Shown here: positions 44,969 through 47,055 of the stretch, piece by piece
How positions within the stretch are numbered: position 1 is the first letter of the stretch
Layout: each line of letters starts with the position of its first letter
From: Halostagnicola kamekurae
Lineage (GTDB): Archaea; Halobacteriota; Halobacteria; Halobacteriales; Natrialbaceae
Length of the DNA: 64,000 nt
Direction: 5' to 3'
Assembly: GCF_900116205.1 (NCBI RefSeq)
Contig: NZ_FOZS01000002.1
Location: forward strand, 1,116,001 to 1,180,000
The notes under the pieces: generated by a model
Told to the model about the DNA's origin: nothing
Databases searched by the model: none
The model's input: only the letters and a program-made list of their open reading frames with translations
Made by a program: the position numbers and the translations under genes

Positions 44969-45565
44969 TCACGATACTGACGGAACCGTCTCGGAGCCGT
45001 CCCGTTTCGACCACCAGTGGCCGACGGCGACGGCGCCGACCGTCGCTAAGACGAGCAGGGCGAGTCCAGTCGAGGGCCCCACGCCGAACTCGTGGATACT
45101 CGCGCCCGTAAATACGACGCAGAGGAGGACCGCGACCCCGTATCGACGGGGCCACGGATCCGGCGTGGCGTCGACCGGATCGACCGCGAGGTAAGACTCG
45201 AGCTGTCGCGCTCGGCGACGCCGCTCGACGATGCCGCGATCCTTGTCGTACTCGACGATGCCGTGCTCGTCGAGTTTCGGGAGGTGGGTCTGGTACAGCG
45301 AAATGTAGACGCGCTGGCGATCCGAGGAGGAGAGTGACTCGACCGTCGTTTCCTCCTCCCAGGCGGCGACCTGTTCGGCGAGATCGCGCAGTTCGACCCG
45401 CCCGTCCGCTCGAGCCATGTATCGAACCACGTCGCGACGGCGGCTCGTCTGCAGGAGGTGAAACGCGTCGTCTTTCGCGATCGCCGTCGGTCGGTCCGTC
45501 GGCTCGGTCGACGAACCGGACTCGACCGACCGCCGTCGAAATTTGTTTTCGCCACCAACACCCAT
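44969..45565 (-). CDS. DUF7344 winged-helix protein with membrane anchor
   Basis: This 198-residue protein has the DUF7344 domain (DDAFHLLQTSRRRDVVRYMA, VYISLYQTHLPKLDEHGIVE and YDKDRGIVERRRRA) followed by two hydrophobic segments (YGVAVLLCVVFTGASIHEFG and GLALLVLATVGAVAVGHWWS). This is the membrane-anchored form of a regulator family present also at 4392-4727. It may sense a membrane or extracellular signal. Its upstream gap of 600 bases holds several hairpins. Confidence 0.85.
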   Translation of the reverse strand: MGVGGENKFRRRSVESGSSTEPTDRPTAIAKDDAFHLLQTSRRRDVVRYMARADGRVELRDLAEQVAAWEEETTVESLSSSDRQRVYISLYQTHLPKLDEHGIVEYDKDRGIVERRRRARQLESYLAVDPVDATPDPWPRRYGVAVLLCVVFTGASIHEFGVGPSTGLALLVLATVGAVAVGHWWSKRDGSETVPSVS

Positions 45566-46165
45566 TATTCGTGAACACTATTCTCACCTCACATAAAACT
45601 GTGACATGTTGTCATACATCCGGGTCACAGACGACGATGCTCGAGAACACGCGACCGCCGTTTCCGACGCCGAAAAGACCCAGCGGGTCCGTCATCGGAC
45701 CCGATCGGGCCCAGTAGGTGGCCACACAGCCACGAGTGGCCGTAAAACGCTGATTGAGCATGAGTGATCCACGGGGTACACAGGGGATGTACCCCTCGTC
45801 CGCGGCTGGGAACCGCGGTCCACCGGCACTCACAGGGATAGTCAGGAGCCGATTCGTCGCGTTCGATCGTCGGAACCACACCGACATCAGTACTGTGGTT
45901 CTATCCAATATTAAAGCTAACTATGGGCGCAATATCCAGATAGTTCGGAGTTAAAATGCAGAATACAGCCAGAAATGCCCCAGAAGTCCCACATACATCT
46001 AAATATATTGGTTCGAGGAAGGAAAGTTGCGCGAGTCACAACCCACTGGCTCGCCCGTCGTCGATCACTACTCGAACAACGGCGATCAGTACCCGACAGA
46101 CGTCGATCAAGACACGCCGGTCGATGAACTCCCGGGGATCGAATCGCGTCTCGAGTTGCCAATCG
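45566..46165. other. 600-base intergenic region with hairpins and an A+T-rich block
   Basis: No convincing gene is seen. The left part has four perfect inverted repeats in 45685-45795. The right part (about 45880-46025) is clearly A+T-richer than the surroundings and holds possible TATA elements (CCAATATTAAAGC near 45907, ATCTAAATATATTGG near 45998). Small open frames here (for example 98 codons on the minus strand, ending at 45612) have non-acidic composition and no acceptable start. The region probably serves as a regulatory leader or encodes an RNA. Confidence 0.5.
45685..45795. ncRNA. candidate structured RNA: four consecutive inverted repeats
   Basis: The perfect inverted repeats are GGGTCCG-TCAT-CGGACCC (45685-45702), the palindrome CCCGATCGGG (45700-45709), GGCCAC-N10-GTGGCC (45720-45741) and GGGGTACA-CAGGGGA-TGTACCCC (45773-45795). 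Together they occupy 111 bases upstream of the membrane-anchored DUF7344 gene. They could form a folded leader or independent RNA in either direction. It has no recognised similarity to a known RNA family. Confidence 0.3.
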
Positions 46166-46825
46166 TCAGGAGTCCAGTCCAGTGGGAGCGATTCGGTTCG
46201 AGAGTTCGGCGCTCACGAGCGCCGAGTGACTTCGGCGCAACCGTTCGGAGAGCGCCTGGTGGGAGATGTCGAGTTCCGATGCCAGTTCCTCGAGCGTGAC
46301 CTGTCGCGGAACGTCGAAGTAGCCGAGCTCGTGGGCTTTCACGATCGTCTCGTACTGCGTCTTCGTCAGCGGTGTCTGGCTGTCCGGCGAATCGTCCATC
46401 GGACTGACCCGCGTGACCCGGACGCCGAAGTCCTCCTCGTCGAACGCGGCGTGACACTCGGAGACGTCCGCTCGCTCGTGAAAGAGCAACTTGAGCGACC
46501 AGCGACCGTCCGCCCCGCTCGCCTCGAGGATCGCGCCGTCGTGCTCCGAGACGATCCGCTGGAACGTTTGGATTCCCTGGTTGAACTCGAGGCGGACGAC
46601 CCACCGCCCGTCGCTCGCGTCGTCCACCGACGCGACGATGTCGGCGGACGGGTCCGACTCGAGCGCCGATTCGATCTGCTCCCAGTCGGGTCCCGTGACG
46701 TACACGAGCGGCGGGCCGCCGCCGATCAGCCCGCTTATCAGAAACTCGAACGTCGGCACGCGATCGAACGTCTGTGCGAATCCGAGGTGCTCGGCCGGCA
46801 CGTCGAGTTCGACCACTGTCGTCAT
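46166..46825 (-). CDS. bacterio-opsin activator-type HTH regulator
   Basis: This 219-residue protein starts MTTVVELDVPAEHLGFAQTF. The N-terminal sensory domain resembles that at 11276-11920, and the C-terminal HTH_10 is LTKTQYETIVKAHELGYFDV and then PRQVTLEELASELDISHQAL. The in-frame Met a few codons upstream (46843) is less typical. Its own 3' side faces the hairpin-rich intergenic region. The target genes are unknown. Confidence 0.9.
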   Translation of the reverse strand: MTTVVELDVPAEHLGFAQTFDRVPTFEFLISGLIGGGPPLVYVTGPDWEQIESALESDPSADIVASVDDASDGRWVVRLEFNQGIQTFQRIVSEHDGAILEASGADGRWSLKLLFHERADVSECHAAFDEEDFGVRVTRVSPMDDSPDSQTPLTKTQYETIVKAHELGYFDVPRQVTLEELASELDISHQALSERLRRSHSALVSAELSNRIAPTGLDS

Positions 46826-47055
46826 GATCCACACCCACCACAAACACGTATAGACGCGTTGTGTTAGCGGTAGCCTTTCCCGCCTCCATCACCGGGAGAC
46901 AGTCCCGTCGCCGTGAGGCTCACGGGTAGTTAGCAGTCGCGACCATCCCCGGTCTCCACCCGCTGAACTGATCACCCGACCGTCGGCCCTCGAGGGGCGA
47001 ACATGCAAAAGCAAGCCCGCGGTATTTGTTCGGTCACGACGACTGTTCGGGTACG

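Follow-up and report, generated by a model that had tools for sequence, protein, structure and literature searches.

The locus lies in a stretch of 64,000 nucleotides from the haloarchaeon Halostagnicola kamekurae (contig NZ_FOZS01000002.1, positions 1,116,001 to 1,180,000), here called the window, and all positions below count from its first letter. Between a gene for a BAT/HTH_10 regulator and a gene for a DUF7344 protein, an initial annotation had noticed four consecutive inverted repeats and taken them as a candidate structured RNA, either a leader or riboswitch-like element of the DUF7344 gene or an independent small RNA. All four repeats exist as described, the first (GGGTCCG-TCAT-CGGACCC) at 45685-45702 and the second, the palindrome CCCGATCGGG, at 45700-45709, followed by GGCCAC/GTGGCC and GGGGTACA/TGTACCCC (Table 1). 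CCCGATCGGG is no element of its own: it shares bases with the first hairpin and belongs to a longer stem of terminator-like form. Over 45685-45795, perfect stems add up to an arm length that is rarer than chance (16 of 2000 dinucleotide shuffles were as high), and the same total was found in 33 of 1727 segments of 111 bases across the 64 kb. Judged by such stem totals, the repeats alone are suggestive of an element but not decisive. They belong to a larger unit on the minus strand, longer than first reported, for which a predicted RNA gene is set out in Table 1 with its neighbors.

Table 1. Genes and predicted RNA features at the locus (positions in the window)
Feature	Position	Strand	Basis or remark
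BAT/HTH_10 regulator gene, upstream neighbor	46166..46843	-	Pfam PF04967 + PF15915
Promoter, BRE-like stretch and TATA box (CCATAGTTAGCTTTAATATTGGAT)	45903..45926	-	position-specific conservation, 86 loci
Predicted RNA gene, ~214 nt	45673..45886 (5' end near 45886, 3' end near 45673)	-	fixed promoter-to-H1 distance, terminator-like 3' end, family conservation
H1, 5'-terminal hairpin GUCGG/CCGAC	45869..45885	-	98.6% of cells paired (74 sequences)
P2 hairpin, GUGAGUG (45833-45827) with CACUCAU (45766-45760), clade-specific insert in loop	45760..45833	-	insert position in relatives
Insert hairpin CCGCGG/CCGCGG	45800..45818	-	loci L007-L010, window's genus
Insert hairpin GGGGTACA/TGTACCCC (fourth repeat of the initial annotation), clade-specific	45773..45795	-	
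Highly conserved core CCGUGGAUCACUCAUGCUCAAUCA	45751..45774	-	near-invariant columns in alignment A3
H3 hairpin GGCCAC-UCGUGGCUGU-GUGGCC (third repeat)	45720..45741	-	pairing and covariation
Terminator-like stem including the first two repeats	45677..45712	-	-25.0 kcal/mol, TTTT directly after
TTTT after terminator-like stem	45673..45676	-	
DUF7344 gene, downstream neighbor, with its own TATA-like element near 45590-45604	44969..45565	-	Pfam PF24035

A covariance model built from 20 of the first 29 sequences (alignment A1), the window's own sequence not among them, matched 82 of 392 genomes of the order, mostly once per genome. The matches comprise 81 of 96 genomes in the window's family and one of 296 in other families; this lone match outside (G353, E = 0.0093) is apparently false, its DNA reading as protein-coding by inspection. 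The covariance search in other haloarchaea, which the initial annotation had proposed as a check, thus finds the predicted RNA conserved within the family and nothing credible outside it. Queried with the minus strand of 45660-45910, a DNA search gave matches in 84 of 125 family genomes at E ≤ 0.01. The strong ones lie mostly on the core and H3; many of the weakest, on other parts of the query, may be chance. When 17 family genomes (15 negatives together with G020 and G021) were searched again at E ≤ 10, one further real member was recovered, G020, and at the sites of the other 16 weak model matches the H3 loop was absent. The promoter regular expression was silent in all 17 genomes, the real G020 included, and is therefore uninformative there. 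Matches to the exact pattern occurred in 18 named contigs, whose genera all stand under Natrialbaceae in the NCBI taxonomy, with one title naming the family only. The plasmid records searched gave no match, and a seeming viral copy (contig L145, whose ORFs look phage-like by inspection) was set aside as chance, the relaxed pattern lying inside overlapping ORFs. These searches point to a predicted RNA gene kept across much of one haloarchaeal family, the Natrialbaceae.

Further comparison used 97 loci drawn from part of the matched genomes, that is, 99 loci minus G353 (outside the family) and G099 (no loop found by the script). A typical locus has the promoter followed by H1, a linker that varies, P2 together with the core, and H3; a minority add a terminator-like hairpin and T run. 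Because the loci were picked partly by regular expressions for the loop and the promoter, the conservation of these two elements is somewhat selected, whereas the changes in the H3 stem and the fixed distance described below are not.

The promoter was profiled in 86 loci, the other 11 of the 97 having a weak promoter match or a contig end too near, and consists across loci of a BRE-like CAA and the TATA box TTTATTA. Of the 86 profiled loci, 77 gave a distance from the TATA box to H1 and 9 were not scored; the spacing was 30 nt in 49 loci and 29 nt in the other 28. An archaeal TATA box is expected about 25-30 nt before the start of transcription, and the RNA is thus expected to start at or just before H1. 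At the level of sequence, the predicted RNA has a promoter of its own, a mark of haloarchaeal intergenic sRNAs. In several relatives the TATA box lies, by eye, between CCAAYA and TATTGG, which form an imperfect inverted repeat at 45903-45926 and its counterparts; this repeat could be an operator overlapping the promoter.

The structure was assessed in alignment A3, which holds 74 of the 97 loci and was made with MAFFT without structure guidance; the 23 loci left out are 19 long forms, the window's own included, and four without a recognised promoter. The covariation score of the whole structure in these 74 sequences is 0.200, which none of 500 shuffles reached, and sliding the partner columns brought it down to 0.044-0.104, so that the pair measures were lowered, not abolished. 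In H3, 98.8% of cells are paired and eight of nine pairs have changes on both sides; RNAalifold recovers the same stem. The H3 loop UCGUGGCUGU is identical in 89 of the 97 loci, which were found partly by that loop, and variants occur in G020 (one changed base) and G021 (a degenerate form). On this comparative basis the GGCCAC/GTGGCC hairpin is the signature of the family and the strongest element of the predicted RNA. The refuting outcome named in the initial annotation, stems kept in no relative, does not hold for this hairpin. H1 hardly varies, with a compensatory change in one pair only. P2 can be drawn in two registers, which pair 69.2% and, in the alternative, 80.5% of cells in the insert-free set; the proposed P2 pairing is weakly supported, or moderately at best, and its uncertain register may differ between clades.

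In the window's genus and several other clades, the P2 loop carries extra sequence; the GGGGTACA/TGTACCCC hairpin lies within such an insert. At one locus (G083, L096 3001-3200) the model matches as two adjacent pieces, which represent either an insert-bearing form or two neighboring copies. A 19-nt part of the core is present with at most five substitutions in 83 of the 97 loci, and of the 14 loci without a match to the regular expression, seven have a two-base deletion common to one genus. In the family genome G099 (L201, about 2175-2400), an HTH_10 gene is followed by a stretch resembling the core and by a stem of the H3 kind that carries another loop; neither a TATA box nor H1 is visible there, and the locus is perhaps a decaying copy.

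Folding energies were compared between the two strands. On the minus strand, 45660-45910 folds with z = -3.55 and none of 200 shuffles is as stable; on the plus strand, z is -1.44 and 12 of 200 shuffles are as stable. Over 86 relatives the mean z is -1.85 for the RNA strand vs. -1.52 for the other, the RNA strand being lower in 50 of the 86. Since folding energy in relatives is modest and differs little by strand, the strand call rests on the promoter and the terminator-like signals. The minimum-energy fold of the window also contains a long closing stem that would draw on the 3' arm of H1, itself conserved; this stem was not adopted.

At the 3' end, the GGGTCCG/CGGACCC hairpin followed by TTTT looks like a terminator. 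In the first 70 nt past H3, 35 of the 97 loci have a hairpin and T run vs. 145 of 1940 dinucleotide shuffles (7.5%); with a limit of 100 nt, 42 of the 97 loci have one vs. 11.5% of dinucleotide shuffles. The shorter limit matters for the reading of these counts, since seven of the 42 loci have the hairpin and T run at 82-84 nt past H3, in several cases where the DUF7344 promoter has its T run. The other 62 loci have no such signal within 70 nt, and where it is missing we infer the 3' end of the RNA.

Several explanations other than an RNA gene of its own were weighed against these data. A fortuitous clustering of inverted repeats, in intergenic DNA that is rich in GC, would agree with the recurrence of the same stem total elsewhere in the window, and also with the fate of the individual repeats in relatives, where H3 is family-wide, a stem of the terminator-like kind recurs in a minority and GGGGTACA/TGTACCCC is clade-specific, so that two of the four are not conserved as such; it is, however, contradicted by the compensatory changes in H3 and by the conservation across the family, and is extremely improbable. 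An mRNA for a microprotein would account for the AUG or GUG that 75 of 83 loci have at the same place in the core. The downstream frame, however, is not kept: the distances from this conserved position to the H3 loop spread over the three frames as 24, 31 and 28 of the 83 loci, and the 14 translations compared differ after the first few residues. The earlier statement that no protein is encoded here agrees with the lack of any reading frame kept over these loci, and we give the microprotein very little chance.

A cis-acting leader or riboswitch of the DUF7344 gene, one of the options of the initial annotation, has in its favor that DUF7344 is the next gene downstream, on the same strand, in 33 of 95 loci. 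In the other 62 the downstream gene is different or unassigned (GNAT 17, a group labelled 'M50' 16, phoU 4, a group provisionally labelled 'EmrE?' 3, unassigned 22), and some of these neighbors are convergent, phoU among them. Neighbor counts come from a simple ORF caller; in G121 it passed over an upstream HTH_10 gene in favor of a different ORF. The 'M50' label does not come from Pfam, in which the one member tested has no family, and the one member tested of the 'EmrE?' group is bacteriorhodopsin-like by Pfam. At L067 3211-3945 a bacteriorhodopsin-like gene (Pfam PF01036) stands convergent to the RNA, and two others group with it by BLAST. Also against a leader, the DUF7344 gene has a promoter-like element of its own: in the window a TATA-like element lies 33 nt before its start, the regular expression finds one 33-41 nt before the start in 15 of the 32 other loci with a DUF7344 neighbor, and similar-looking boxes stand before DUF7344 in several loci that the expression missed. 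In addition, the window has the terminator-like stem and TTTT between the predicted RNA and the DUF7344 gene. The RNA is probably no DUF7344 leader; we consider that option quite improbable and have dropped this part of the earlier proposal.

More weight has to be given to the gene on the other side. It is possible, though we hold it to be somewhat unlikely, that the RNA and the upstream BAT/HTH_10 regulator form one functional module, with the RNA as regulated output or partner. The upstream neighbor is an HTH_10 gene in 75 of 94 loci. In an orthologue survey of 28 hand-picked genomes (16 RNA-negative, 12 RNA-positive), a close HTH_10 orthologue is missing in 14 of the 16 RNA-negative family genomes (no match at E 1e-25, or at most 38% identity), and one of the two that retain it, G021, shows a degenerate H3-like sequence after the HTH_10 gene. 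Furthermore, the RNA occurs behind both HTH_10 genes of the incomplete genome G121, in two different copies (L114, loop index 3029 on the reverse strand; L204, loop index 2460), as if the pair had been duplicated together. The same survey also holds evidence against a module: the orthologue is missing in seven of the 12 RNA-positive genomes (matches of at most 44% identity), most of them picked for a non-HTH_10 upstream neighbor, and G085 has the HTH_10 gene with no detectable RNA. In G016, gene and RNA are about 30 kb apart. A single deletion that took out both neighbors would account for much of this pattern. The pattern fits a functional link and fits simple linkage too. The more specific proposal, a two-part module of RNA and adjacent regulator that is inherited, duplicated and lost together in many genomes and has the H3 loop as its contact point, we regard as unlikely.

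Two observations concern the DNA around this gene. In many relatives (e.g. L070, L074 and L078), translating the frame ahead of the HTH_10 start gives similar residues (GWRERLPET...VYTS), which suggests conservation of a 5' region or promoter of the HTH_10 gene. G002 carries, on a different contig (L006 1501-1600), a second copy, with 74% identity, of the AT-rich stretch that matches 45918-46017 of the window.

Taken together, the locus likely holds a stand-alone non-coding RNA gene on the minus strand, with its own promoter and a product that would act in trans as a regulatory RNA. Of the options first proposed, the independent small RNA is the one that stands, given the fixed spacing of the promoter, the compensatory pairs of H3, the conservation in the family and a terminator-like 3' end in about one third of loci; promoter, non-coding nature, H3 structure and family-wide conservation are all supported, as read from DNA sequence only, and from them we infer that the predicted gene is transcribed. 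Transcription would begin at H1 or slightly upstream of it, driven by the archaeal promoter whose TATA box is at 45915-45907, and would end once RNA polymerase has passed a GC-rich hairpin and a run of U. The product would measure about 214 nt here and, in many relatives that lack the insert, roughly 150 nt. Such an RNA would keep its 5' hairpin, the core GGUGGAUCACUCRUGCUC, and H3 with a free stem sequence and the nearly fixed loop. A stem that covaries freely under a loop that is nearly fixed, with a core also conserved, would suit a recognition hairpin in a trans-acting RNA, and the H3 loop and core may be contact sites for an mRNA or a protein. A trans-acting regulatory RNA is the most likely nature of the product, by a mechanism of this presumed kind.

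Candidate partners of the core and the H3 loop were sought by complementarity. In five genomes of the genus, complements of the core gave, beyond the RNA itself, one site with three mismatches and no candidate above background, and complements of the H3 loop were no commoner than a reversed control; extended mRNA targets of either were rejected, with complements at background in these five genomes. Pairing with rRNA was also rejected: against the genome's own SSU and partial LSU loci, flanks included, 7, 31, 10 and 30 of 60 shuffles were as good for SSU with core, SSU with loop, LSU with core and LSU with loop, respectively. For a box C/D or H/ACA guide, there is no Rfam match, and many shuffles formed duplexes with the genome's SSU and partial LSU rRNA as good as the best ones of the core and H3 loop. 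The core carries UGGAUCAC, a word that the 16S rRNA of the same genome also has within its 3' tail; a shared word of this length was found for 80 of 20000 core shuffles, in a comparison made after the fact, and UGGAUCAC changes in some clades. On a bolder and unlikely reading, the core with this word could imitate the anti-Shine-Dalgarno region.

To our knowledge, few archaeal regulatory RNAs have a structure supported by covariation. An RNA with a nearly fixed loop on a covarying stem, and mostly a single match per genome, offers a definite molecule for study, and its link with the BAT/HTH_10 regulator offers a first testable function. Rfam (4227 families) gave no match at the gathering threshold over the whole window, and for 45560-46165 only three chance-level matches at E up to 10; a tRNA search of the window found none. 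A search of open-access papers, supplementary tables aside, found no description of this RNA, which might nevertheless figure as an unnamed transcript in some published list.

Two known groups of haloarchaeal RNAs come closest. sRNA132 of Haloferax volcanii is an intergenic phosphate-starvation sRNA of 138 nt with two stems and a linker and, like the RNA predicted here, a haloarchaeal intergenic sRNA with its own BRE/TATA promoter (PMC6560208). Identity with sRNA132 was first suggested by phoU beside some loci and was set aside; its authors report sRNA132 only in the genus Haloferax (PMC6560208). Our model, in contrast, finds nothing credible among the 296 genomes outside the window's family, and only four of the 95 downstream neighbors belong to the phoU group; on these grounds the two RNAs are probably distinct. 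The intergenic sRNAs of haloarchaeal communities are similar in being conserved non-coding RNAs of Halobacteria with promoter elements and no assigned function, but the main text of that study contains no word starting with 'Natr', and the comparison is one of descriptions (PMC7002113).
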